Below, one piece after another: positions 6,636 through 45,587 of a stretch of DNA of 64,000 nt. A model generated the notes under the pieces. That model had not been told where the DNA came from. It ran no database searches and saw nothing but the letters and a program-made list of their open reading frames with translations. The stretch lies in NCBI GenBank assembly GCA_023265625.1, contig JAHFST010000006.1, positions 1-64,000 of the forward strand, read 5' to 3'. Made by a program: the position numbers and the translations under genes. Position 1 is the stretch's first letter. Every line of letters begins with the position of its first letter. The DNA is from Deltaproteobacteria bacterium (GTDB lineage: Bacteria; UBA10199; JACPAL01; JAHFST01).

Positions 6636-9557
6636 ATGAATCGAAAAAGCGGAGGCATCCTCATATTTTTGTGGCTTTTGGCGGGGTGCAGCTCAAGCAC
6701 AACCTCCTCGACAACGGTCAGCGCCAATGCCGGTTCCGATCAGCAAGTTGTCACGGGCACGACGGCCACTTTGGATGGTCAGTCAAGCACGGGAGTGACG
6801 AGCGCCGCCTGGACCTTCAGTTCAAAACCATCCGGTTCTTCCGCGAGTCTCGCGAATTCCTCGACACTGACCCCTAGCTTTACGGCCGATGTGGCGGGTA
6901 GTTACGTTGTGCAACTTGCCATTAATGACAGTGCCAGCACCGATACAGTCACCGTCACGGCCCAAGCCACGGTTTCGGCCATTTCGGTTGGATCGGGTGT
7001 CGCCACCCGGGAACGATTTAACACCACGGAATATGTCGTGAGTGCCGGAGAGACGGCTACGCTCTCCGGGGCCTCGAGCGCTGCGGCCCTCAAGACCAAG
7101 GCGGCGGCGGTTTCCGGATATTCCTGGGAACAAATCTCCGGTCCCGGGGCCACGGTCGTGGGTAATACCACGAGTGAGACCTTGCAATTTGTCGCCCCCG
7201 GTTACGCCGGGATTCAGAATCTTAATCCGGCGGATAATTACAAATGGCAGATCCTGCCGATCTCTCGAGATGATACGAAGATGGTTTTTCGCTTGACCAC
7301 GACCGGGAGTAACGCGGCAACGGATGTCTCGACCTTTACCCTTTATCTACAAGACTCCGACGGGAGTGAGATCCATACCAGTAGCGGGCTCCCCAATGTG
7401 GCGATCGGGGCGCTGGTTGTTTTATCGGGCCCCGATTTGCTGGCCTCGGGGGCCAGCGCGACGGATGCCACTAAGACGAACGGCAGCGCGGTGACTGACT
7501 GGTCTTGGACATTGACTCCCCCGTCAGGTTCCTCGGCAACCTTTGAAGACACGGGCACGACGACGTCTGCCGTCCAATTTCCAAAATTCGTGGCCGATGT
7601 GGAGGGGATCTATGCCGTAGCGTATAGCAGCACCACAGGGACCAATACCTACACGGCCGCCACGACCAAGTGCCCCGGGACATTGACCATTAATGTGGCG
7701 GATTGGGTTGGGGTTGGAACGGTTGGCGGTACCACTCCGACGGCCCCGCAATGTGCCACCTGTCATGGTGTCTCGGACATCAGTGGTCTGGGAGACACCG
7801 TGACCCCCTGGTCTGCCACCGTTCATGCGAAGATTTTTGAGAATAACATGTCGACCTACCAGGGACTTGCGCCGGAACCTTACCTCTGGGAATTTCATAC
7901 GGTAGGTTACAATAAAGACGTGATCAATAATGGTTTTGATGATTTGGCCAGTGATAACAATTTTACATTTCCAAGCGCTGGCTTGACCTATGCGGCCTTT
8001 ACCTCCCAGGATCCTGCCGTGGCCAAACTGGCCAACGTGCAATGCGAGAACTGCCATGGTCCCGGGAGCCAGCATGATGGGGATCCGCTCCGCATTGGTG
8101 TTTCTTTTGCGCAGGCTGGGACCTGCGGACAGTGCCATATTCAAGAGACGGAGTGGGAAAACTCGGGGCACAACTTTGTCGGTGTGGAACATGGGAGCGG
8201 CAATTATCAATCCAGCTGGGTGAGTTCGCCAGGTTGTTTGCGTTGCCACAACTCCAAGGGTTTCACGACTTATCTTGAGAGTGGCAGAAGCGCCGAAACC
8301 AGTCTGGTTTCAGACGCCTCCGCGGACTTTCCAGGGGTTACCTGTGCCGCTTGTCATGATCCACACGATGTGACCAACGAAAGCCAACTGCGCCAAAAAG
8401 GGAATGTCACGATGGCGATTGATGGATCCACCGTCGATGCCGGGAAGGCGGCGGTTTGTTACACCTGTCATGATGGGAATTACGCCAAAGGAGAAACCAA
8501 CTGCGACGTGAATGGTGATGGTTTGGCCAATTCCAGCGATAGCAGCACCACCTTGGGGATCACCAGCGGGGTTTGCGGATCTCTTTATGGGACGGCCGTC
8601 GGATACTGGAGAGGGGGGATGCACTACGCCGAGGCGGCCCCCATGTTGGAAGGGAACCTAATGATTAAAGACCTGGATAACGATGCCACCGACGATCTGA
8701 CACTCGATGAGAATTCCTTTCATTCCAGCGATGCCTTTACCCTGGCTGGTGTGACGGGAAACACTAGCCTCCCTTCGGAAAACAATAAGTGCGTCACCTG
8801 TCACATGGCGGCAGGGCCTTCCGCAGAGGAGGCGGGATATGGACATCTCGGCGGGCATACCTTCAAGGTCGTGAGCGGACATGGCATCGGTCACCTGCTA
8901 GGTACCGATGAGGGAGATGAACAAGCCGGCGAGGCGGGTGACATTGAATTGGTGAGTGCATGCCAGACTTGTCACGCCTCTGTTACTGAGATTAACCGCC
9001 TGGCCCGGGCCGATTACGATGGAGACGGGGTGCGCGAGGGGATTCAGGACGAGGTCAGTGGACTTGTCTTTGCCCTGTGGAAGTTGATCAAGGTGGTGGA
9101 TACCGCGAATGGGGGCAACCTGAATCAGACGGCCACGACCTACAACACGACGGTGGGACCGGCCTCATCGGATGACACTCCTGGTGGCACTATCACGGTT
9201 AACACGATCAACTGGAAGGGCGATTGCGCAAGCTTCAGTGGAACCACCGGGGCCGCTTGCGGCAAGAGTATCACCGGCACCGGCAAGTGTACCAATGTCG
9301 CCCAGAATAAGACCAAGGATGATTATCAGCAATGCAACTTCATGGAGGCCCCCGCCTATCTTCGTGCGGCGATCTGGAATCTCAAGTCGGTCATTCAGGA
9401 TGGTAGTTTGGGAATTCACAACGCCGCTTACGTTGTCCAGACTTTGCAGGAGACCTACAAGGCGGTGGGGAGAAAGGCCGCTTTGACGAAAAATGGCACG
9501 GCGGCGACATCAAGCTTCACCTACCAGACCGACTACTCGAGTGCGACATTGCGTTGA
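6636..9557 (+). CDS. Eight-heme outer-surface lipoprotein cytochrome with Ig/PKD-like N-terminal region
   Basis: The ATG at 6636 has a GAGAGGA ribosome site and gives a lipoprotein signal (FLWLLAGC lipobox), so the mature Cys is anchored to lipid; the ATG at 6609 is less likely. Residues of about 20-360 are Ser/Thr/Gly-rich with PKD/Ig-like repeats (GSDQQVVTGTTATLDG and related strands). The rest carries eight CxxCH sites: CATCH, CENCH, CGQCH, CLRCH, CAACH, CYTCH, CVTCH and CQTCH. A heme-free C-terminal segment follows. It is the third gene of the porin-cytochrome operon and is placed like OmcB. The likely role is passing electrons to extracellular acceptors, or taking them up. Confidence 0.85.
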   Translation: MNRKSGGILIFLWLLAGCSSSTTSSTTVSANAGSDQQVVTGTTATLDGQSSTGVTSAAWTFSSKPSGSSASLANSSTLTPSFTADVAGSYVVQLAINDSASTDTVTVTAQATVSAISVGSGVATRERFNTTEYVVSAGETATLSGASSAAALKTKAAAVSGYSWEQISGPGATVVGNTTSETLQFVAPGYAGIQNLNPADNYKWQILPISRDDTKMVFRLTTTGSNAATDVSTFTLYLQDSDGSEIHTSSGLPNVAIGALVVLSGPDLLASGASATDATKTNGSAVTDWSWTLTPPSGSSATFEDTGTTTSAVQFPKFVADVEGIYAVAYSSTTGTNTYTAATTKCPGTLTINVADWVGVGTVGGTTPTAPQCATCHGVSDISGLGDTVTPWSATVHAKIFENNMSTYQGLAPEPYLWEFHTVGYNKDVINNGFDDLASDNNFTFPSAGLTYAAFTSQDPAVAKLANVQCENCHGPGSQHDGDPLRIGVSFAQAGTCGQCHIQETEWENSGHNFVGVEHGSGNYQSSWVSSPGCLRCHNSKGFTTYLESGRSAETSLVSDASADFPGVTCAACHDPHDVTNESQLRQKGNVTMAIDGSTVDAGKAAVCYTCHDGNYAKGETNCDVNGDGLANSSDSSTTLGITSGVCGSLYGTAVGYWRGGMHYAEAAPMLEGNLMIKDLDNDATDDLTLDENSFHSSDAFTLAGVTGNTSLPSENNKCVTCHMAAGPSAEEAGYGHLGGHTFKVVSGHGIGHLLGTDEGDEQAGEAGDIELVSACQTCHASVTEINRLARADYDGDGVREGIQDEVSGLVFALWKLIKVVDTANGGNLNQTATTYNTTVGPASSDDTPGGTITVNTINWKGDCASFSGTTGAACGKSITGTGKCTNVAQNKTKDDYQQCNFMEAPAYLRAAIWNLKSVIQDGSLGIHNAAYVVQTLQETYKAVGRKAALTKNGTAATSSFTYQTDYSSATLR

Positions 9558-14474: not shown

Positions 14475-14906
14475 TTACCAGCTGCGACGATTGCCACCGC
14501 CACCGCCGCCGCCTCCACCACCATAATCACCGCCACGGCCACCACCACCGCCGCCACGTCCACGGCCACCACCGCCGCCGCCTCCTCCACCGTAACCACC
14601 ACGACCGCCACCGCCGCCATACCCACCACCGCCGCCGCCACCACCAGAACCGCGCGGGGCTTGGGGACGTGCTTCGGAAACAGTCAAAGGACGACCTTCA
14701 TAGTCTTGACCATTGAGGCGAGTGACTGCATCCGTGGCCTCTTGCTCATTGGACATCTCAACGAAACCGAACCCTTTACTGCGTCCGGAATAACGATCCA
14801 TCACCACTTGAGCCGACACAACCGAACCGCATTGCGAGAAGAGCTGCTGGAGCGCGTCGTCTGTTATTGAATACGGCAGATTGCCGACATATAATTTTGC
14901 ACCCAC
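14475..14906 (-). CDS. Glycine-rich RRM RNA-binding protein
   Basis: Residues 1-80 form one RRM: RNP2 LYVGNLP near the start and RNP1 KGFGFVEM near residue 45. The remaining 60 residues are almost only Gly with Arg and Tyr (RGG/YGG type). The start is GTG, preceded by AAGGAGG. Such single-RRM, Gly-rich proteins occur in cyanobacteria and deltaproteobacteria and are often cold-induced RNA chaperones. The mRNA targets cannot be inferred. Confidence 0.92.
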   Translation of the reverse strand: MGAKLYVGNLPYSITDDALQQLFSQCGSVVSAQVVMDRYSGRSKGFGFVEMSNEQEATDAVTRLNGQDYEGRPLTVSEARPQAPRGSGGGGGGGGYGGGGGRGGYGGGGGGGGGRGRGGGGGGRGGDYGGGGGGGGGGNRRSW

Positions 14907-33233: not shown

Positions 33234-33257
33234 GGGACGAATACAAGATTCTTCTCT

Positions 33258-33375
33258 ACGGAATGCTTACTACCACAGGTGCTTTCTCAGGCCGCGTTCT
33301 CACAAACACAAACGATGGGATGCCCTCGTGTACCGTTGAGGGGGTGATGCTTGGGAGCAAGAGGACTTGCACCGG
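33258..33375 (-). repeat. Partial duplicate of the 3' end of the lipoprotein gene at 35662
   Basis: This 118-base stretch is about 85% identical by eye to 35663-35781, which encodes the last 40 or so residues of the lipoprotein. A shared core block includes CTCACAAACACAAACGATGG-like sequence and GAGGACTTGCACCGG. It has no start, so it is a dead copy 2.4 kb from the intact gene. Confidence 0.8.
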
Positions 33376-35661: not shown

Positions 35662-36714
35662 TTACGGAATATCCACCACCACCGGTGCTTGCTCAGGCCG
35701 CATCCTGACAAACACAAACGATGGGATGCCCTCGTGCACCGTCGAGGGGGCAATGCCTGGGAGCAGGAGGACTTGCACCGGGGCGAAGGCGGGGAAGTTG
35801 AGGTCTGAGGTGCCGCAGCCGGCGGGTAATTCATTGGCCTCGGTGTCGCGGGCGTCTTGCAATAGGGTGTACTGATCTGGCGTGGGGGAATAGAAACCAA
35901 AGGCCCCGTCGGTTGGGTCTTTGGTGCTGCCATTAAAAATATCGGCGGCGGTCAGGACGGCTTGGTCGTAGGCGATCAGGCTGGATTTTTTTACGTTGGT
36001 GCGTTGTGCGGCGCCCTCATACTCATCATGGGTCGGGTCATCGGGTGTTAAGGGGGAAAATTGGTAGATCATTCCATTGTTAGCCTCGATCACCTCGTTG
36101 TAATAGGAAACGGATGGATTCAGGGCGTAAAGATCCGGGTTGGCCAAAAATAGGCCGGGATTTTCCTGCTCATTAATCAGATCAATGCGATTGCGGATCA
36201 CGGAACCCAGGGCATCGCCGGTGACACTGACGCTCGTTAATTTGACCTGTCCCTCCGCATCGAGGCTGGCCTCGGCGTTGAGTTCTCCTTGGGCCTCGGC
36301 GAACAAGATCTGGATCAGACGTTGGGGGGGGATGGTTATCTCCGTGGTGGTGAATTCTTTGCCGTCCACCTGAGCGGTGACGTAACCGATGCCCTCTTGT
36401 TTGGGAACGATCTGGGCCTGTTTGGCATCGGTGAAGGTTGTTTGACCCTGCGGAACCATGATGGAAAATAGGTCGGTGTCCTCACTGACGAAGTCTAATA
36501 ATTTGAGATCAACATTGGCGGTGACCAGGTCTGTATCGCTTCTAGTCCCACCCAAGGCCAAGGCGAGTGTGTTTGTCACTGATTTTTCTTGCTGGGTCGC
36601 TGCAGGCTGGGCGCTGCTGCCAGTGAATGGGATGAGTTTTTTGAAAAAATTGCAACTCGCCAGAAGCATGACGCCCATGCACAGGATCAAGATATAGAAG
36701 CATTTTCTTTTCAT
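35662..36714 (-). CDS. Lipoprotein of unknown function
   Basis: A 350-residue protein with a lipoprotein signal (MKRKCFYILILCMGVMLLASC, broken at the Cys; lipobox LASC). The mature part has no recognised domain. It is acidic, with strands such as ITIPPQRLIQILFAEAQGEL and a conserved end FVFVRMRPEQAPVVVDIP. The base composition is like the housekeeping genes, unlike the AT-rich genes upstream. The last part was partially duplicated at 33258. It is probably anchored in the inner or outer membrane. Confidence 0.7.
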   Translation of the reverse strand: MKRKCFYILILCMGVMLLASCNFFKKLIPFTGSSAQPAATQQEKSVTNTLALALGGTRSDTDLVTANVDLKLLDFVSEDTDLFSIMVPQGQTTFTDAKQAQIVPKQEGIGYVTAQVDGKEFTTTEITIPPQRLIQILFAEAQGELNAEASLDAEGQVKLTSVSVTGDALGSVIRNRIDLINEQENPGLFLANPDLYALNPSVSYYNEVIEANNGMIYQFSPLTPDDPTHDEYEGAAQRTNVKKSSLIAYDQAVLTAADIFNGSTKDPTDGAFGFYSPTPDQYTLLQDARDTEANELPAGCGTSDLNFPAFAPVQVLLLPGIAPSTVHEGIPSFVFVRMRPEQAPVVVDIP

Positions 36715-36817
36715 TAATTAAAAGCTCCAAGTATGGAGGGATGCTATCGAAGTTAAACAGCATAACCAAGTTTATTATTTTTCACTTTGGGCAAGGGAGT
36801 ACGGAGGTATTTCAAGT

Positions 36818-37759
36818 TTAAGGCTTTTTAAAGTTGTTCAAATAATTCTTATATTCTGTATTATCAGGCTCAATAGATAAGGCTTTCTGAAGCCATCCAT
36901 AGGCTTTATCTTGTTCCCCGTTGCTAAGCGCAATTTTACTAATATTGAAATACGCGTCACTATTTTCCGGATCTTTCTCGATAACATCCTGAGATATCTG
37001 TAGGGCTTTATCAAAATGTTTGCTTTCAATGTAAGCTTCCGCCAAATTACTTTGAATTACGCTTTTATCAGGATTTTTCTTGGCCATTTCTTCCCATGTT
37101 TCGATAGCTTTATCGACTCTATTTGTTTTGAGATAGACTGTAGCTAGGCCGTTTTGAGCATCGATATTAGTATGATCATTTGAGATAATTTCATTATAGT
37201 ATTGCTCGGCAAATAACTTTTCTGCCGTAGTCCCCTCTGTTCCTCTTTCAAAGGTTAACATTTCTGCAACATTAAACTTTGCATCCGCATTATTGGGGTC
37301 TTGCAGTAGAATTTCGTTAAACTTCAAAAGAGCGTCGTTAGATTTTCCTTTTAGGCGATCAATAATGCCCAAACCTAATTTGGCCGCTTCGCTATTAGGC
37401 TGATTTTGAAGCAAGTCTGTGTAATAGGCCTCAGCGGAAGCTAAATCCCCAGATTCTATTGAACTCATTCCAACGTCTTTAGTCCCAGGAAAATTGGAAG
37501 TTTCTACGTCTCCCATATCCTGAGGCCTGTTCTTATCATCGTCTAAATTATCATCCTCATCATCCGTAGGGGAGATTTTTTTCAAAATGGTGTCCTTTTG
37601 CTCTTTTCTTTTCGCGTGATTTGATAAGGAGCGCGGAGGGCCTTTTTTTTCAAGTGCGTTATTGACAGGGGTATTTTCTTTTGTTTGGCGGGTGAGCATT
37701 ACAACCAAATTGGCTATTAGTAGCAGAATAAGGATAAATAATAATTTATTTTTTTTCAT
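36818..37759 (-). CDS. Membrane-anchored TPR protein of the peptide-export operon
   Basis: A 313-residue protein with an N-terminal anchor (LLFILILLLIANLVVML), an acidic linker (DDEDDNLDDDKN) and about five TPR units (ASAEAYYTDLLQNQPNSEAA, DKAIETWEEMAKKNPDKS, DKALQISQDVIEKDPENS). It is 3 bases from the small membrane protein gene and downstream of the ABC exporter, so it is one operon. A scaffold role for export is inferred from position. The sequence is AT-rich like the RiPP genes. Confidence 0.78.
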   Translation of the reverse strand: MKKNKLLFILILLLIANLVVMLTRQTKENTPVNNALEKKGPPRSLSNHAKRKEQKDTILKKISPTDDEDDNLDDDKNRPQDMGDVETSNFPGTKDVGMSSIESGDLASAEAYYTDLLQNQPNSEAAKLGLGIIDRLKGKSNDALLKFNEILLQDPNNADAKFNVAEMLTFERGTEGTTAEKLFAEQYYNEIISNDHTNIDAQNGLATVYLKTNRVDKAIETWEEMAKKNPDKSVIQSNLAEAYIESKHFDKALQISQDVIEKDPENSDAYFNISKIALSNGEQDKAYGWLQKALSIEPDNTEYKNYLNNFKKP

Positions 37760-37762
37760 ACA

Positions 37763-38017
37763 TCAGTTGCTCGATGAAGTTTGTTCAAATAAGATATCCT
37801 TAATCGGTATCGAAATTGACTGTCCTTCCTTGTCCGTGATTTTTATGGGAAGTTTCAAAAGTTGAAATCCCACAAGAAACAACAATAGGACAGCTGTGAT
37901 CATGGATGCTGAAATCAAAGTTATTATTCTTTCCAGCTGAATATGGCTTATTGTGTAAATCCAAGATTCGAATTTTTTCTGAAGATTATGCATAAAGGTA
38001 AAGATTTGATGGGTCAT
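37763..38017 (-). CDS. Small single-pass membrane protein between exporter and TPR genes
   Basis: An 84-residue protein with one hydrophobic helix (IITLISASMITAVLLLFLVG), a charged N-terminus and a C-terminal periplasmic-looking tail (ITDKEGQSISIPIKDILFEQ). The gene overlaps the 3' end of the ABC exporter by 32 bases; an ATG at 37993 would shorten the overlap. No family is recognised. Its fixed place between exporter and TPR gene suggests it belongs to the export machine. Confidence 0.6.
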   Translation of the reverse strand: MTHQIFTFMHNLQKKFESWIYTISHIQLERIITLISASMITAVLLLFLVGFQLLKLPIKITDKEGQSISIPIKDILFEQTSSSN

Positions 38018-40139
38018 TGGAGGTTTTATCTAGATCACTTTCAATCGCTTGAATCAATTGTTCAGCCATTTTCATTGATTGATGAGCTGTCGCGGCACAA
38101 CTATTAAATTTGTTCACGTGATGAATCCCGTGTGTTTGAATATATTTATTAATAATTAGATTAATTCTTTTCTCTACTTGAATAGAACCGGATAGACTCG
38201 TATCCGGTAAGCACAAAAGAACCATCCGATCCCTATATATGGTTGAAAAGTCCATTGCTCTTAAATAATGGTTGATGTGCTGATGCAAGGATCTAACGAA
38301 ATTATTTGAAGATGATTCTTCATTTTCAACCCTAAATCCAATAAGAGAAAGGGCTGTGTGGTAACGTTTGAACCTAGAAAATTCAGTTTCAAGGCGTTGT
38401 TGGAACTCCCCAAAGCCCGTTGTCTGCAATTGATAGAGATTAAAGAAGGCTCCCTTTCTGGCCATTAGATCAAAAAAATTCCCTTGCTCTTGTATCATGC
38501 CTTCCTTCAGAACAACAATGTTATCAAATCCTTTAAGATTGTTTAAGCGGTGAGTTGCTGTCACTATGGTCATATTTTTTTTGCATTTCTGAAGTGCATT
38601 AAAAATAAGATATTCACTTTCAGGGTCTAGGGCGCTTGATACTTCATCAAGGAGAAGAATTTTCGGTTTAAGAATCAAAGCGCGCGCGAGCGCAATTCGT
38701 TGTCTTTGACCACCTGAAAGATTCGTCCCTAATTCATCTACTTGAAAATCATATTGTTGAGGCAATTGATTCATGAAGTCATAAGCATCCGCCAATTGGC
38801 ATGCTTGGGTGATTTCACTATCCTCTGATTGGCCACTTCCAAAACATATATTCTCCCTAAGTGTTCTTTTAAATAGGGCGATCTCTTGAGGGACATAGGC
38901 CATAAAATTTCTTTCAAAGCCATGGGTAGGATCGCGTTTATTGCCATTCAAGAAAATGCCGCCGTTATCGGGTTGATAAAGGCCTGCCAAGATTTTGATT
39001 AAAGTAGATTTTCCAGAGCCACTAGCTCCCACGATAGCTACAAGAGTTTTATCTTCAATCTTCAGACTGATATCTTTTAAGATACATTGGTTACTATAGC
39101 TAAATGAAATATTGCTGAAAACAAAATTAGCTTCCGTGTTTAAGGGGGGGGTGTTTTTTTCGGGCTGATTTTGAGCGGAATGGTCAGTGGACGGGGAAAG
39201 AATAATTTCATTAAGTCGGTCTGCAGACACTTGTGCAATTCGCAGTGAAGAGTAAAGACGTGTAAATTCTCGAATAGGATTCCAAAATTGGGCTAAATAG
39301 GCGGTTAAGGCCATCATATGGCCCACTGTCATTTTTCCTGTGATAACTTCCCAGCCAATAAAGCCCGTGACAAGCGTGCTCCATATTTTTACCGTAAAAC
39401 TGTGACTGAGAACATTAACAAGCTCGATGATTTTTTTCTGAAGATTAATAGAATTTCTAGTCTTAAAACATCTTAATACTTTTTGTTCTTCCTGTTTTTC
39501 ACGACCGAAACATTTAATTAGATGGAAGTTTGCTAGCCTTTCGTAAAGGGAACTATATAAGTTTGCCTGGGTTTGTTGTTCATGCTGCAATAATTTCTGA
39601 GAAGTATTCGAAAAAAAATGAGCTTCCAGCCAATTTAAAGGAACGGAAAGGATGGCAAGAAAAGTGACAAGAGGATTGATATGAAATGCTATTGATAATA
39701 GGAAAAATAATGTTACAAAATTGATGACCAAAACCTGAGGAGTGCTTACAATTATACTAGAAATAATTTCCGTATCATCTGTAGCTCTAATGATAAGATC
39801 GCTACGATTTAAGTGATCAAATTTTTTGGCTGACAATGCGCCTATCTTTTCAATAAAAATCTTGCTGATAATGCGAGTTGTCGAGACTTTAGTATACTCG
39901 TGCAGATAATCCGTCAGAGAGCTTAGGAGAGTTTGTAAGATATAAATACCAAAACCCGCAAGTAGAATCTTGATAAATAATGGAAAGTTACGATTGGGAT
40001 AGGCATAATCAAAAATTATAATCGCAAACAGGGGTGCCAAAAGTCCTAAAAAATTTGAAAAAAGGTCAGTAATAATTTCCGCAATGATGATGAGTCGATA
40101 AGGTTTTAAATAGTGAAAAAAATTGGTTACTTTCGACAT
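37986..40139 (-). CDS. ABC exporter (fused permease-ATPase) with a degenerate GGDEF-like C-terminal domain
   Basis: 717 residues. Residues 1-320 form a six-helix exporter membrane domain. The ATPase follows, with Walker A GASGSGKST, signature NLSGGQRQR and Walker B ILLLDEVSSALD. There is no N-terminal C39 peptidase. After about residue 590 comes a domain that aligns by eye with GGDEF domains: EFQQRLETEFSRFKRYHTAL (helix and first strand), then LRAMDFSTIYRDRMVLLCLP where the GGDEF motif should be, then the closing helices. The catalytic motif is replaced by YRDRM, so cyclase activity is not expected. It is divergent from the RiPP precursor and probably exports the product. Confidence 0.88.
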   Translation of the reverse strand: MSKVTNFFHYLKPYRLIIIAEIITDLFSNFLGLLAPLFAIIIFDYAYPNRNFPLFIKILLAGFGIYILQTLLSSLTDYLHEYTKVSTTRIISKIFIEKIGALSAKKFDHLNRSDLIIRATDDTEIISSIIVSTPQVLVINFVTLFFLLSIAFHINPLVTFLAILSVPLNWLEAHFFSNTSQKLLQHEQQTQANLYSSLYERLANFHLIKCFGREKQEEQKVLRCFKTRNSINLQKKIIELVNVLSHSFTVKIWSTLVTGFIGWEVITGKMTVGHMMALTAYLAQFWNPIREFTRLYSSLRIAQVSADRLNEIILSPSTDHSAQNQPEKNTPPLNTEANFVFSNISFSYSNQCILKDISLKIEDKTLVAIVGASGSGKSTLIKILAGLYQPDNGGIFLNGNKRDPTHGFERNFMAYVPQEIALFKRTLRENICFGSGQSEDSEITQACQLADAYDFMNQLPQQYDFQVDELGTNLSGGQRQRIALARALILKPKILLLDEVSSALDPESEYLIFNALQKCKKNMTIVTATHRLNNLKGFDNIVVLKEGMIQEQGNFFDLMARKGAFFNLYQLQTTGFGEFQQRLETEFSRFKRYHTALSLIGFRVENEESSSNNFVRSLHQHINHYLRAMDFSTIYRDRMVLLCLPDTSLSGSIQVEKRINLIINKYIQTHGIHHVNKFNSCAATAHQSMKMAEQLIQAIESDLDKTSNDPSNLYLYA

Positions 40140-40357
40140 AGAATCGATTTCCTGTTCATGGGCAGCTATCGGGGATGTTTATTTAGGGATATTCCTGAAG
40201 TTTTATAGGTGTGACCCCTCATATTTTAGCAAACCAATAATTTCTCTAATAGTTATAATATTGCCATAAATAACATTATATATTTTATCATTTAGGTAAT
40301 AAAAAATATATAAAATTAAATACCGTTTATTTTTAATTATTTATAAGAAAGTATTTC

Positions 40358-40386
40358 TTGATCATTTTTTCAATTTTGTGTACTAT
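40358..40386 (+). promoter_or_regulatory. Promoter of the RiPP precursor operon
   Basis: TTGATC and TACTAT are separated by exactly 17 bases, matching a sigma-70 pattern. The -10 box lies about 40 bases before the precursor ATG, which has an AAGGAG ribosome site. The surrounding 290 bases up to the divergent exporter gene are very AT-rich and contain no gene. Confidence 0.5.
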
Positions 40387-40426
40387 GTCCATAAAATAGA
40401 TAAGTGGTTATAAAAAAGGAGAAAAT

Positions 40427-40642
40427 ATGCCGCGTCAGATTGAGAAGAAAATTAAGCTAGGTAAGACCGACAGTATTAAGGCGGCCTGTCAGGTACGTAG
40501 TCTTGCCATCCAGACAGGCAAGACGGACACCATCAAGGCAGCCTGTCAGGTACGTAGTCCTGCCATCCAGACAGGCAAGACGGACACCATCAAGGCAGCC
40601 TGTCAGCAACATAGTCCTGCTGCGAATCCAAAAAATAAATAA
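40427..40642 (+). CDS. Multi-core RiPP precursor peptide with three tandem 19-residue units
   Basis: A 71-residue, very basic peptide. After an 11-residue start (MPRQIEKKIKL) it consists of three units of the form GKTD(S/T)IKAACQ followed by VRS(L/P)AIQT in units 1 and 2 and QHSPAANP in unit 3, then a short KNK end. Each unit has a single Cys in KAACQ plus Thr and Ser, the residues used by YcaO enzymes. A strong AAGGAG site precedes the ATG. The next genes encode a HEXXH modification protein and a YcaO protein. There is no signal peptide and no recognised leader family (no Nif11, no GG motif). This identity is inferred from repeats plus context. Confidence 0.7.
   Translation: MPRQIEKKIKLGKTDSIKAACQVRSLAIQTGKTDTIKAACQVRSPAIQTGKTDTIKAACQQHSPAANPKNK
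40460..40630 (+). repeat. Three 57-base tandem repeats within the precursor gene
   Basis: The units start at 40460, 40517 and 40574, with a period of 57 bases (19 codons). The first parts of units 2 and 3 are almost identical at the DNA level, which indicates recent duplication, while unit 1 differs at several silent positions. Confidence 0.9.
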
Positions 40643-40683
40643 AGGTCGCGGTTCTTCTGCTATCTGGATTTAAGTGGATCTCT

Positions 40684-42006
40684 ATGATTAAAATACGGCC
40701 TTCTGCTTCAACCTCGTTGGTGCGGAGTCAGCAACTGTCACGGCAGGTGATTAGTGACATTAAAACGCTTTTGGTGTTTTACAAAAATGAACACAATAGA
40801 TCTTTATCAAGTGAAGAAGTGCAAACGATTGCTGGCCTGCTAAAAACCCTCTCCTATTTCTCTGCAAAGCTAAAAGAGGCCTCTCATGACCAAAGATGGC
40901 AAATTGTAAGCCCGGAACTTTATCAATGGTATTTCAAGGCGTTGGGAATTTTAAAAGCAAAAGAATGGAATCTATTTAAAGAATGTATCTCAGATCTTTC
41001 TCAGCAGATCCTCCCTCGATTATTAAGCCTGGGTTTTCAAATAAATGAAATCCCCATATTGCTCGATTCAGAATACAAAATACATTTTCCGCAAGTGAGA
41101 AAAATATATTGTTTCCCAAAGGTGAATGGAAAGCTTGTCAAATCAAGACTTGAAAATAAGACAATGCTGCTAGAAAATAACCAACATCGCGTTAAGATTA
41201 ATATTAAGCGGCTACTTGAGAATTTAGAAGATAGCCAATGGTCACAGCGCCCTAGGATTGCCGGAACTAGTATTTATTATAAACAAAGTGGGGATGAGCT
41301 GGGGCAAGTCATAAAAACCATTGCCAGTGAAACTAGCATGGCTAAGGAAGAAGCGTCTGAACTTTGCAATGTTTCATGGCATGAATTTTTTAATGATAAG
41401 CTGTATATAAACTCGAGGAGAAAAATTGATCGGGCGATGAGATTGATAAAAAATATTTCTCCGACATTTTATGAGGAAGTTGTTTCAGTGACTCATGCAT
41501 TTTCCCTTCTTAAAAATACATGCCTGATTGGGGCTACGGTTATTTCATATTATGGAGTTTGTTTTTTAAACCCACGTTCCGATTGGAATGTGATTACATT
41601 CGCCGATCATATCGTCCATGAAGCAGCTCACCAGATACTTTATGCTTGGCATGAATTAAGCCCGCTTTTAGTCAATTGCAACGAGATGGGCTATCCTTCA
41701 CCCATTCGGGATGACCCACGCCCTCTCTATGGCTCCTTTCATGCGACGTTTGTTTTTTTACGGCTGGTCTTATTTTTTGATCAATTAGTCCGTAAAACTA
41801 AATCTAGGGAAGCTGAATTTCGCTTTCATCGTCATTTACAGGGTTTGTACACGGGTATGGATGTTTTAGAAAAGGCGGCTAAATTTACGCCTAAAGGCAA
41901 AGAATTATTTCAGGCGATGAAATTTGAAACAGCAAGATTCAAAAAAAGAATACCACGGCCAGATCCGAAAGCTTATAATCGTTATCTACGTGATTACTCA
42001 AACTAA
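40684..42006 (+). CDS. HEXXH-motif RiPP peptide-modification protein
   Basis: 440 residues. The C-terminal part contains FADHIVHEAAHQILY with HEAAH at residues 312-316. A DDPRPLYGSFHATFVFLRLVL block follows with His at about 353, as in the HEXXH-domain family linked to peptide natural products (TIGR04267-like; NCBI also names members aKG-HExxH-type peptide beta-hydroxylase). The two His plus the distal His could bind iron or zinc. The N-terminal 200 residues are helical and unassigned. The gene starts 41 bases after the precursor and overlaps YcaO. The likely role is hydroxylation or another change on the precursor, which is inference. Confidence 0.75.
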   Translation: MIKIRPSASTSLVRSQQLSRQVISDIKTLLVFYKNEHNRSLSSEEVQTIAGLLKTLSYFSAKLKEASHDQRWQIVSPELYQWYFKALGILKAKEWNLFKECISDLSQQILPRLLSLGFQINEIPILLDSEYKIHFPQVRKIYCFPKVNGKLVKSRLENKTMLLENNQHRVKINIKRLLENLEDSQWSQRPRIAGTSIYYKQSGDELGQVIKTIASETSMAKEEASELCNVSWHEFFNDKLYINSRRKIDRAMRLIKNISPTFYEEVVSVTHAFSLLKNTCLIGATVISYYGVCFLNPRSDWNVITFADHIVHEAAHQILYAWHELSPLLVNCNEMGYPSPIRDDPRPLYGSFHATFVFLRLVLFFDQLVRKTKSREAEFRFHRHLQGLYTGMDVLEKAAKFTPKGKELFQAMKFETARFKKRIPRPDPKAYNRYLRDYSN

Positions 42007-43249
42007 CGCCATAGATTACACAAGAAAGAATTTTCCCAGTGCTTTCTTAGATTCAAAGATTTCACATTTTCAGCGTATCCCAAGTAAGATTATTTCTAAA
42101 GAATTCTCCCTTTACATGGGGTTAATGTCGATTGTCCACCAGCAAGAAAATATTTTAGGCCATGCCCTGACTCAAAGATTCGAAGCTTTTGGAATGGGAC
42201 AAAGCATTGAGGAGGCTCAATTTAAATGTTTAATGGAAATGCTAGAAAAATTCTCAATTACTTCTACGGATACGATAAAGCGACATCTCGTACGCCGAAG
42301 TATGTCCCATCCACATTTGGATTGGAGCTTATTTGCTCCCTATCAATCATTAGTGGTCAAGCAAATGAAGCAAGATAAAGCCCATTACCCCTGTTATCAT
42401 GTTCTTTGTGAGGGAATGATTTCAGGCAAAAAATACACTGTTCCTGCAGAGTGTGTGTTTCCAAGGTGGAACAGCCAAATAGCGTGTGAAAGGCATATAG
42501 ATGAATATGACGGGAGCGGAATAGCTGCAAGCCTATCAAAAAATAGAACCTATGCTTTGGCGCACGGTATAAGCGAGGTGCTAGAGAGGGATGCTCTCAT
42601 GCTTTCCTGGAGACTTAGAGGTTGGCCGTGTCACATTGTTTCTGAATCATTGATCGATCAAAAAATTAAGGATTATATTCAGCTAAAACACCTGAAAGTT
42701 GAATTGTATGACGTGGGTGACCCTCATCTCATTCCGGTTATAATTTCTGTTCTTGGGAAGAAGGATGAGAGTGAAGTAACAATAGGATCCAGCGCATCGT
42801 TTGATCTACATCAGGCTTCTGATAAGGCAGTCACTGAGGCTCTGATGCTAAGGGATGCTGGTAGATATTGGTCTAGAAGAGGGGTAGGTGATAAGCCAAA
42901 GCTCATAGCTGATAGCTACGGTCATATTGCTTATGGATTCGAACATGGTTCTCAAATTGTTAATTGGTATCGGAAACAAGCATTACTTAGTAGAACAATA
43001 TCTAGGAAGAGAAAGAGTTTGAGTAAGCTATTATTGGGGTGTCATCAAGTATTTGGTTATGAACCGCTCTTTATTGACGTGACAGAGCCTCAATTAAAAA
43101 AAGATGGGTATTTTGTTTGTCGTACTCTTATCCCCAACGCTTATCGTAAAGAATGGCGTCATCAAAAGCCTTTCTTGGGTGGGGTGCGATTGCTACGTTT
43201 AACAAAAAAAGGTTTGGGCTTAAATAAAAAACCTCACCCGTTTGGATAA
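41990..43249 (+). CDS. YcaO-domain peptide-modifying enzyme
   Basis: From a GTG at 41990 the protein has about 419 residues; an ATG at 41924 would overlap the previous gene by 83 bases. The YcaO ATP-binding signatures are present: SIEEAQFKCLMEMLEKFS and the hallmark HGISEVLERDALMLSW. The end LNKKPHPFG carries the Pro-rich C-terminus seen in azoline-forming members. YcaO enzymes activate backbone amides with ATP to make azolines, amidines or thioamides at Cys, Ser or Thr. No E1-like or ThiF partner gene is in the cluster, so it either acts alone or uses a new partner. Confidence 0.88.
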   Translation: MITQTNAIDYTRKNFPSAFLDSKISHFQRIPSKIISKEFSLYMGLMSIVHQQENILGHALTQRFEAFGMGQSIEEAQFKCLMEMLEKFSITSTDTIKRHLVRRSMSHPHLDWSLFAPYQSLVVKQMKQDKAHYPCYHVLCEGMISGKKYTVPAECVFPRWNSQIACERHIDEYDGSGIAASLSKNRTYALAHGISEVLERDALMLSWRLRGWPCHIVSESLIDQKIKDYIQLKHLKVELYDVGDPHLIPVIISVLGKKDESEVTIGSSASFDLHQASDKAVTEALMLRDAGRYWSRRGVGDKPKLIADSYGHIAYGFEHGSQIVNWYRKQALLSRTISRKRKSLSKLLLGCHQVFGYEPLFIDVTEPQLKKDGYFVCRTLIPNAYRKEWRHQKPFLGGVRLLRLTKKGLGLNKKPHPFG

Positions 43250-43254
43250 ATAAT

Positions 43255-44142
43255 ATGTCTTCTTTTAAATTAATTCCTCCTGTTGGTATGTCTGACTTAC
43301 TGGGTACTGGCGTGTGTAAGCCCAATCTGCCGATTCCTTCTACTGCTCATCACGAAGAAAAGCCTCCTTTAATGGACAATTTTCATGGAACACAATTTAA
43401 ACAGGATCTGGATACTGGTAGAGGAGTTGGTATGAAGAGATCAATTATAATAAGTGACCCAGCTCAATATTCTAATAGAGTTGTTTTGGCTGAGATTCAG
43501 CTTAAAAAAAATGCCAATATCAATGCCAAGGATTGGAAATTATTCATGGAAGCTAAAAGAGGTGAAGTTGCCCAAAGCTTGAATCAAGAAGGGGTTGAAG
43601 GGGAACATTATTTTATCTTGGAAGAAGATGGTAAGCCAGATTCTATCCTTATTTTCATGGAAGCTGATGATTTACAGCAATCCGCTAGAATTGCAGCACA
43701 ATCAAATTTGGGTGTTGATAAATTTCACCGTCAATTTAAGCAATCTTGGGATTCAAAACAAAAACACGAGCTTCTGGGAGTTGTGGAATTAGGGTTAGCT
43801 ATGGAAAAAAAACGGAGAGCAAAATACTTTTGTCAAATCGTTGAATTTGATATCGATGAGAGTCAGTTATCAGCTCTTAGGCGAGATCTTCAAGATAGCA
43901 ATAGCTTCTCATTGGAAGAGTTTCGTAAAGGTCGAATCATAAGTGCTCATTTTTTTCTTCGCCAAGGAGGGGGAATGACTAGATTGATTCAAATCGCTAA
44001 GATTGAAGGCGATTCTAAAAGTTCATTGGGAAAATTGAGTCCTTTAGATCTAACTCAAAATATGAACAATAAAGATTTATTCATAAGATCACCTTTGTTG
44101 GCAACCTTTAAGCCTTTTATTTCTTTTTGCGCGTCTTCTTAG
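43255..44142 (+). CDS. DUF6176-like protein of the RiPP operon
   Basis: 295 residues without a signal peptide. Residues of about 75-170 match the DUF6176 pattern: VVLAEIQLKK, then EVAQSLNQEGVEGEHYFIL, then ILIFMEADDL, then DKFHRQFKQSWD. A second, weaker copy may lie at about 195-265 (FCQIVEFDIDES...). The N-terminal 60 residues are Pro-rich. The function of DUF6176 is not known to me. The gene is 5 bases after YcaO and followed by a terminator, so it is the last gene of the modification operon and might be a leader-binding or immunity protein. Confidence 0.6.
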   Translation: MSSFKLIPPVGMSDLLGTGVCKPNLPIPSTAHHEEKPPLMDNFHGTQFKQDLDTGRGVGMKRSIIISDPAQYSNRVVLAEIQLKKNANINAKDWKLFMEAKRGEVAQSLNQEGVEGEHYFILEEDGKPDSILIFMEADDLQQSARIAAQSNLGVDKFHRQFKQSWDSKQKHELLGVVELGLAMEKKRRAKYFCQIVEFDIDESQLSALRRDLQDSNSFSLEEFRKGRIISAHFFLRQGGGMTRLIQIAKIEGDSKSSLGKLSPLDLTQNMNNKDLFIRSPLLATFKPFISFCASS

Positions 44143-44147
44143 TAAAA

Positions 44148-44179
44148 AAATGCCGCTCTCATTTCTGAGAGCGGCATTT
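44148..44179. terminator. Strong bidirectional terminator after the RiPP operon
   Basis: AAATGCCGCTCTCA and TGAGAGCGGCATTT form a perfect 14-base stem with a 4-base loop. A run of A precedes it on the plus strand, so T follows it on the minus strand. It separates the RiPP operon from the converging RCC1 gene. Confidence 0.85.
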
Positions 44180-44204
44180 GCAAAATACAGATCAGTTGTG
44201 CAGA

Positions 44205-45431
44205 TTAATCACATGGAATGTTAATCTTTACGGGAACGCTGGATGCTGAAATATCCTTTGCCAATTCTCCATTAGATCCTGAACCCCAGCAGAACACGTC
44301 TCCATTTTTCGTGATAGCACATGAGTGTGTCTGCCCAGAGGCGATAGAGATAGCGGTATCTTCCAGAGCAACGGGTCTGGATGGACGAGGCACAAAGCCA
44401 GAATTATAGCTCAATTTTCCAAACCCCAATTGACCATATTGAGAACTGCCCCAACAGAAAACATCTCCATTGGATATTAACCCGCAACTCGTATCTTGCC
44501 CAACCGAAATGTCCTTAAACTTCAGCTTTTTTTCTTCAACAAGCTTGGGCGAAGCTTCCACCGGCTTAAAAGAGTTGTTACCAACCTGTCCTAAATCATT
44601 CCTTCCCCAACAGATGTCCTTCCCATCCTCTCTCAATGCGCAGGTTGTTTGATGGTAAGACGACACTTTAACAATGCTATTCAACGGGAGTGTTACTCCA
44701 TTATTGGAAGCGATGTTTTTATTCGGTACTCCTAATTGGCCAAAATTATTATACCCCCAGCACATCACATGGCCAGACTGATTTACAATACATGTATGAT
44801 TCGTACCGCCAGTCGCTGTGGCAATCCCATCTTTTGCAAATTTTTGCTCGTTAGAGATAGCGACAGGATTGCTTGTAGCAGGTTTGACCCAATTATACAA
44901 TCCGTTCGATGATGTTCCCGCACACAATAAATTTCCATTAGCGGCATTGTTTCCATCGAATGAGTAGGCACACGACTGATTTCCAGCAGCCATCAAGCCG
45001 TCTACGTGGATCAAGTCTGATATCAACAACGCAGATTCTGGTTTTGGAATGCCATAAGCAATAATATTTCCATCACCTAGTTGTCCGAAGTTGTTGTCTC
45101 CCCAGCAAGTAACTTCACCTTGAGCAGAAAGGGCACAAGCATGTAAATGTCCGGCTTGGATATCCACAACGTCAGACAAACCAGATATTTGGAGAGGTTT
45201 CTCAGACTTTACTACGCTAATATCTTGTCCCAATTGTCCATATTGGTTGCTTCCCCAACACCAAACTGTCCCTTTTGTGGTATCCGTATCCACTATCGTG
45301 CATGTAAAAGAGTTCCCTGCTGCAATGCCACTGGCCTGACAAATATTTTGCTTATTATCTGTAGCCCATACGGTTGTTATCATAACAAACTGACATAAAA
45401 TCAATATCTTACCAACTGTAGATTTATTCAT
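44205..45431 (-). CDS. Secreted RCC1-repeat (beta-propeller) protein
   Basis: The ATG at 45431 follows AGGGGG and starts a signal peptide (STVGKILILCQFVMITTVWA). The mature 380 residues hold about seven RCC1-type units, each with a C-W-G-x-N-x-x-G-Q-L-G motif (WCWGSNQYGQLG, TCWGDNNFGQLG, MCWGYNNFGQLG, ICWGRNDLGQVG, FCWGSSQYGQLG, FCWGSGSNGEL). Cys residues recur in each blade and could form disulfides. It is AT-rich like the RiPP genes. A link to the RiPP cluster is only positional. Confidence 0.85.
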   Translation of the reverse strand: MNKSTVGKILILCQFVMITTVWATDNKQNICQASGIAAGNSFTCTIVDTDTTKGTVWCWGSNQYGQLGQDISVVKSEKPLQISGLSDVVDIQAGHLHACALSAQGEVTCWGDNNFGQLGDGNIIAYGIPKPESALLISDLIHVDGLMAAGNQSCAYSFDGNNAANGNLLCAGTSSNGLYNWVKPATSNPVAISNEQKFAKDGIATATGGTNHTCIVNQSGHVMCWGYNNFGQLGVPNKNIASNNGVTLPLNSIVKVSSYHQTTCALREDGKDICWGRNDLGQVGNNSFKPVEASPKLVEEKKLKFKDISVGQDTSCGLISNGDVFCWGSSQYGQLGFGKLSYNSGFVPRPSRPVALEDTAISIASGQTHSCAITKNGDVFCWGSGSNGELAKDISASSVPVKINIPCD

Positions 45432-45587
45432 TCTCATCCCCCTGTGATGTAAATGGTTATTGTTTTTCAATAGTCAAAACTATTGATGTCTTCCCATTAT
45501 CGACACTGAGATGGGTAGGAGTTGCTTAGCCGAGAAGATTTTTCTATACCGCTTCATAAATGAGTTTGATATGGGGTTGGGTTTCTT

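Follow-up and report, generated by a model that had tools for sequence, protein, structure and literature searches.

Characterised alpha-ketoglutarate-dependent HEXXH enzymes of RiPP pathways include ChlH, BpmH and PflC/PosC; ChlH hydroxylates Asp and His, and PflC and PosC hydroxylate consecutive Gln residues and cleave the peptide backbone at an ARMD motif (PMC12636437). Repeated core peptides are known from the thiovarsolins (varA/varY/varT), products of a YcaO pathway whose precursors vary across the family from no repetition to five repeats; the repeated cores are excised although the cluster encodes no protease dedicated to this (PMC6511847). TOMM systems of the SagBCD type constitute a further point of comparison. 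In this work, we describe a locus within a 64,000-nucleotide stretch of contig JAHFST010000006.1 (hereafter the window), where a small frame encoding a peptide with a repeated motif stands directly before an HExxH gene and a YcaO gene, a pair for which a literature search of limited range found no describing paper. Since this peptide gene directly precedes genes for two peptide-modifying enzymes, it probably encodes the raw material of an undescribed modified-peptide product. Judged from sequence, the locus displays the arrangement of a RiPP gene cluster, with a short precursor frame adjoining genes for enzymes that modify peptides, and is a probable cluster of the HExxH-YcaO type with a multi-core precursor.

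The frame (40427-40642, forward strand) encodes a putative multi-core precursor of 71 residues, in which an N-terminal part of 11 residues (MPRQIEKKIKL) is followed by GKTDSIKAACQ, the spacer VRSLAIQT, GKTDTIKAACQ, the spacer VRSPAIQT, a second GKTDTIKAACQ and the end QHSPAANPKNK. The preliminary description had reported three GKTD(S/T)IKAACQ motifs, each holding a single Cys, and both the open reading frame and its coordinates proved exact. The peptide is basic throughout, with a single Cys per unit, and carries neither an acidic leader nor a recognised cleavage site; it also differs from the PflC/PosC type in that the ARMD cleavage motif, the Gln run and an NHLP leader are absent from its sequence. 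A Shine-Dalgarno sequence, AAGGAG, is located at 40416-40421 (forward strand), 5 nt before the ATG, and is the only clear one in this four-gene operon, the enzyme genes having none. No family in NCBIfam or Pfam matched the peptide above the cut-off, and the best match in PHROGs had an E value of only 0.016. Further, no homologue was found in plasmids (tblastn, E up to 10) or in viral contigs (degenerate pattern), no second copy elsewhere in its own genome, and no diverged homologue in a scan of genome contigs, which gave only a near-identical MAG. On the contig of this second MAG (JAHFGK010000070.1, Candidatus Omnitrophota), 2 mismatches were present over 10,188 bases, none of them in the repeat; the array, and hence its copy number, is identical.

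The repeated part of the peptide corresponds to a 57-bp tandem array (40459-40620, forward strand; TRF score 254, 90% match), which occurs once in the 2.93-Mb genome and holds only 2.8 units, the third ending in QQHSPAANPKNK. Units 2 and 3 had been taken as almost the same at the DNA level; this holds for their 33-nt heads, which are identical, but not for their 24-nt tails, which differ at 10 positions and thereby at 5 residues, as would be expected of unconstrained sequence. With the register set to VRS(L/P)AIQTGKTDTIKAACQ, the copies at 40493-40549 and 40550-40606 differ at 1 of 57 nt, so that one recent 57-bp duplication explains the third motif. Conversely, heads 1 and 2 differ at 6 of their 33 nt, five of these differences falling on third codon positions and only one residue being changed (Ser to Thr), whereas 3.1 to 3.7 changed residues are expected when the changes are permuted (P 0.044 or 0.007, depending on direction), and the same differences read in the other forward frames give 5-6. 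The permutation for the whole of unit 1 against unit 2 reached only P 0.09; the head test is sharper, but because the division into head and tail was picked after seeing the pattern and one sequence is concerned, we regard the selection-like pattern as moderate evidence. Since the frame is open through all units and the head differences fall mostly on third positions with a single residue change, the repeat frame does not appear to be a product of chance. Taken together, these comparisons suggest that the peptide once had two motifs, whose sequence was maintained by apparent selection, and that it gained its third through a recent duplication of 57 bp; conserved motifs with variable spacers, the pattern of a multi-core precursor, are seen within this one sequence. 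The proposal of a translated precursor ahead of the HExxH/YcaO pair gains support from the Shine-Dalgarno site and the coding-like substitution pattern.

Another way to read the array is as an untranslated minisatellite or a structured RNA element, which would be in line with the inverted repeats in its units, with folding z-scores of -2.1 on the plus strand and -2.6 on the minus strand, and with a GC content unlike that of the surroundings (GC 0.56 and GC3 0.54 in the repeat, versus GC3 of 0.28-0.35 in the enzyme genes). We consider this very improbable, as it is opposed by the open frame, the strong Shine-Dalgarno site, a period divisible by three and the third-position bias, and as the array is not dispersed in the genome; a structured RNA element in particular was set aside given these coding-like features and the lack of a credible Rfam family.

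The first enzyme gene (40684-42006, forward strand) encodes a protein of 440 residues belonging to the aKG-HExxH-type peptide beta-hydroxylase family (TIGR04267, 92.4 bits, cut-off 40), with its HExxH motif, HEAAH, at about 41617-41631; its best solved relative is ChlH (8s5f, E 1e-8). By this curated score the protein belongs with ChlH, BpmH and PflC/PosC; those enzymes come from pathways of the radical SAM or MNIO kind, whereas its partner here is a YcaO protein. The gene of the latter (41990-43249, forward strand) begins with a GTG that overlaps the HExxH gene, and its product, the sole YcaO of the genome, matches PF02624 over nearly the full length (80.8 bits) and ends in PHPFG. Resemblance to TOMM systems is found in the full-length match of this protein to the SagD-type model TIGR03604, in its end, close to the PHPFP ends in two TOMM-like loci examined, and in the Cys, Ser and Thr that each repeat unit offers; however, the SagD score of 96 bits lies far under the cut-off of 219, and the island that holds these genes contains neither an E1-like YcaO partner (cyclodehydratase C) nor a dehydrogenase. 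Genome-wide, the only E1-like candidate, encoded on another contig, stayed below the cut-off with 27.5 bits, and similar matches turned up in control genomes. With the thiovarsolin system the locus shares a YcaO, a precursor with a repeating core and the lack of a specific protease in the cluster; in contrast, YcaO-TfuA makes the thioamides of thiovarsolin, whereas no TfuA was found above the cut-off in this genome, which has an HExxH enzyme instead. No recognised RiPP recognition element was found near the small frame or the enzyme genes, although the N-terminal 240 residues of the HExxH protein might fill this role. Neither the HExxH nor the YcaO protein had a match in viral contigs. Downstream, a DUF6176-domain protein is encoded at 43255-44142 (forward strand; PF19673, 39.6 bits, cut-off 27). 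Single-sequence structure models were unusable, with pLDDT values of 48 for the HExxH protein and 31 for the DUF6176 protein.

All these genes lie in an AT-rich island (36800-45500; 38% GC, with values of 0.36-0.42, versus about 0.52) that was presumably acquired horizontally, and the HExxH family was found in 1 of 46 Omnitrophota genomes searched, being missing from the 45 others. A divergent operon, on the reverse strand of the same island, encodes an ABC exporter with membrane and ATPase parts (37986-40139, by profile matches), a small membrane-type protein with no family match (37763-38017) and a TPR protein with an N-terminal membrane segment (36818-37759). The ABC protein is likely the exporter of the product; it has no N-terminal C39 peptidase part, and about 140 extra residues at its C-terminus have no Pfam match. 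A protein with RCC1 repeats and a likely signal sequence is encoded at the edge of the island (44205-45470). Just outside it, a 119-bp direct repeat (33257-33375 and 35663-35781, 87% identical) resembles a duplicated remnant of coding sequence. Elsewhere in the window, a CCA-rich tandem repeat with periods of 3 bp and 27 bp is present at 14494-14646.

The island contains no protease gene, and this bears on whether the repeated units are ever separated. The 71-residue peptide might instead be a substrate that receives modifications at more than one site yet is never divided, its repeats providing multivalency, for example in metal or surface binding; the missing protease, the lack of an evident cleavage site, an exporter devoid of the C39 part, and a basic peptide with one Cys per unit would all agree with this. 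We nevertheless hold it to be rather unlikely, since the repeated cores of thiovarsolin are excised even though no dedicated protease is encoded in their cluster (PMC6511847), and separate units fit better with spacers that diverge and motifs that hold.

Relatives of the locus were sought across about 1,800 genome searches. In a Streptomyces-like genome (G468), an HExxH protein of similar length is 40% identical over 197 aa (E 3e-47), with a truncated YcaO gene directly downstream and a 43-residue frame, MPEIDELDIQINRGAVGSAMMQMKSAVSTELDDDAFTSFEDNR, with a GGAGG site directly upstream; the similarity of this frame to the 71-residue peptide, suggestive by eye, is not significant (P 0.09). Just upstream of that small frame (L041, about 8001-8355) lies another that, read by eye, looks like the final part of a methionyl-tRNA synthetase and may represent a resistant version of a target. 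The order small frame, HExxH, YcaO also occurs on plasmids of Streptomyces microflavus (NZ_CP054927) and Embleya (NZ_CP108777). The HExxH-YcaO pairs of these two plasmids share about 43% and 51% identity with one another and are preceded by clearly homologous frames of 24-26 residues, MNEEIEQVPEEELPELALMVDVPS and MNEVIEPVTPEELPELPLLIDLPGDQ, respectively. The window shares this gene order, and the S. microflavus YcaO also ends in PHPFG; in contrast to the window peptide, the two plasmid frames are short, acidic, nearly free of Cys, Ser and Thr, and unrepeated, and the S. microflavus cluster additionally contains a methyltransferase, a P450 and an aldo/keto reductase.

Other matches resembled the locus less. 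An S. hirsutus locus has an HExxH protein and a ThiF protein with no YcaO listed, representing another RiPP-like setting. HExxH proteins in G078, G223, G088, Staphylococcus, Xenorhabdus and Pantoea had no recognised adjoining YcaO among the listed features and frames, several of these loci having an MFS transporter, and weak YcaO matches in G209 and G062 corresponded to TOMM-like loci without close similarity. In G088 (L025, 1418-8280), a frame looking by eye like a member of the MNIO (DUF692) family is found within a few kb of the HExxH gene.

The expectation that small frames precede other HExxH/YcaO pairs and keep a constant KAACQ in a variable number of repeats has so far gained support in its first part only: small frames are present in that position in three other loci and conserved between two of them, but none has KAACQ or repeats. 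The recurrence of a small frame with HExxH and YcaO across phyla speaks, through its position, for a precursor role, but not for KAACQ as a core of general occurrence. The same recurrence, together with the curation of the TIGR04267 family as peptide-acting, makes it improbable that the two enzymes act on some other substrate, such as a host protein, with the small frame being unrelated or a regulatory peptide. Some YcaO enzymes do act on proteins, ribosomal ones among them (PMC13063428, PMC5589413), and the lack of a peptide homologue and a codon make-up unlike that of the enzyme genes would suit this explanation.

We therefore favour, with fair but not high confidence, a reading in which 40427-40642 encodes the precursor of a RiPP that is modified by the adjoining HExxH and YcaO enzymes, with the motif as its unit, and exported by the ABC protein. 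Counted against it are the GC content of the repeat relative to the enzyme genes, the lack of a homologue of the peptide and of KAACQ or repeats in the frames of related loci, the truncation of the G468 YcaO, and the lack of an acidic leader, a cleavage site, a protease in the island, a recognition element and an E1-like partner. Modification of the peptide, the residues modified, the cutting into units and export are steps that we infer as follows. The precursor would be made in excess from its strong ribosome-binding site; the alpha-ketoglutarate/Fe HExxH enzyme would modify it, with a mass shift of +16 expected per hydroxylation, and the YcaO would activate backbone amides with ATP, with -18 expected per azoline, or another backbone change. 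The 11-mer GKTD(S/T)IKAACQ would be the selected unit, as a core or as a core plus recognition signal, its multiplication by the in-frame 57-bp duplication may have raised the yield of product per precursor, and release of the product would fall to the divergently encoded ABC exporter. As the preliminary description proposed, the repeated part may itself guide the enzymes, and cutting would yield separate products with one Cys each.

A more specific proposal, to which we give a slim chance, is that the pair works as a module that hydroxylates and then cyclises, the HExxH enzyme beta-hydroxylating a residue such as Asp or Gln and the YcaO closing an oxazoline there. As the YcaO would use the new beta-hydroxyl, heterocycle formation would extend beyond Ser, Thr and Cys; a hint in this direction comes from the S. 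microflavus and Embleya frames, which have almost none of these three residues and yet keep Asp. In the window, the candidate residues would be the conserved Asp of GKTD and the Gln of AACQ.

HExxH enzymes are newly recognised RiPP catalysts, and their pairing with a YcaO and a repeated, leader-poor precursor constitutes a new combination of components whose kinds were already known, the pair posing a testable question of chemical logic. Such a precursor would also offer a simple substrate for asking how enzymes recognise a peptide that has no classical leader. Finally, if the RiPP reading holds, the locus would represent a RiPP pathway of the Omnitrophota, whose members are known almost entirely through their genomes.
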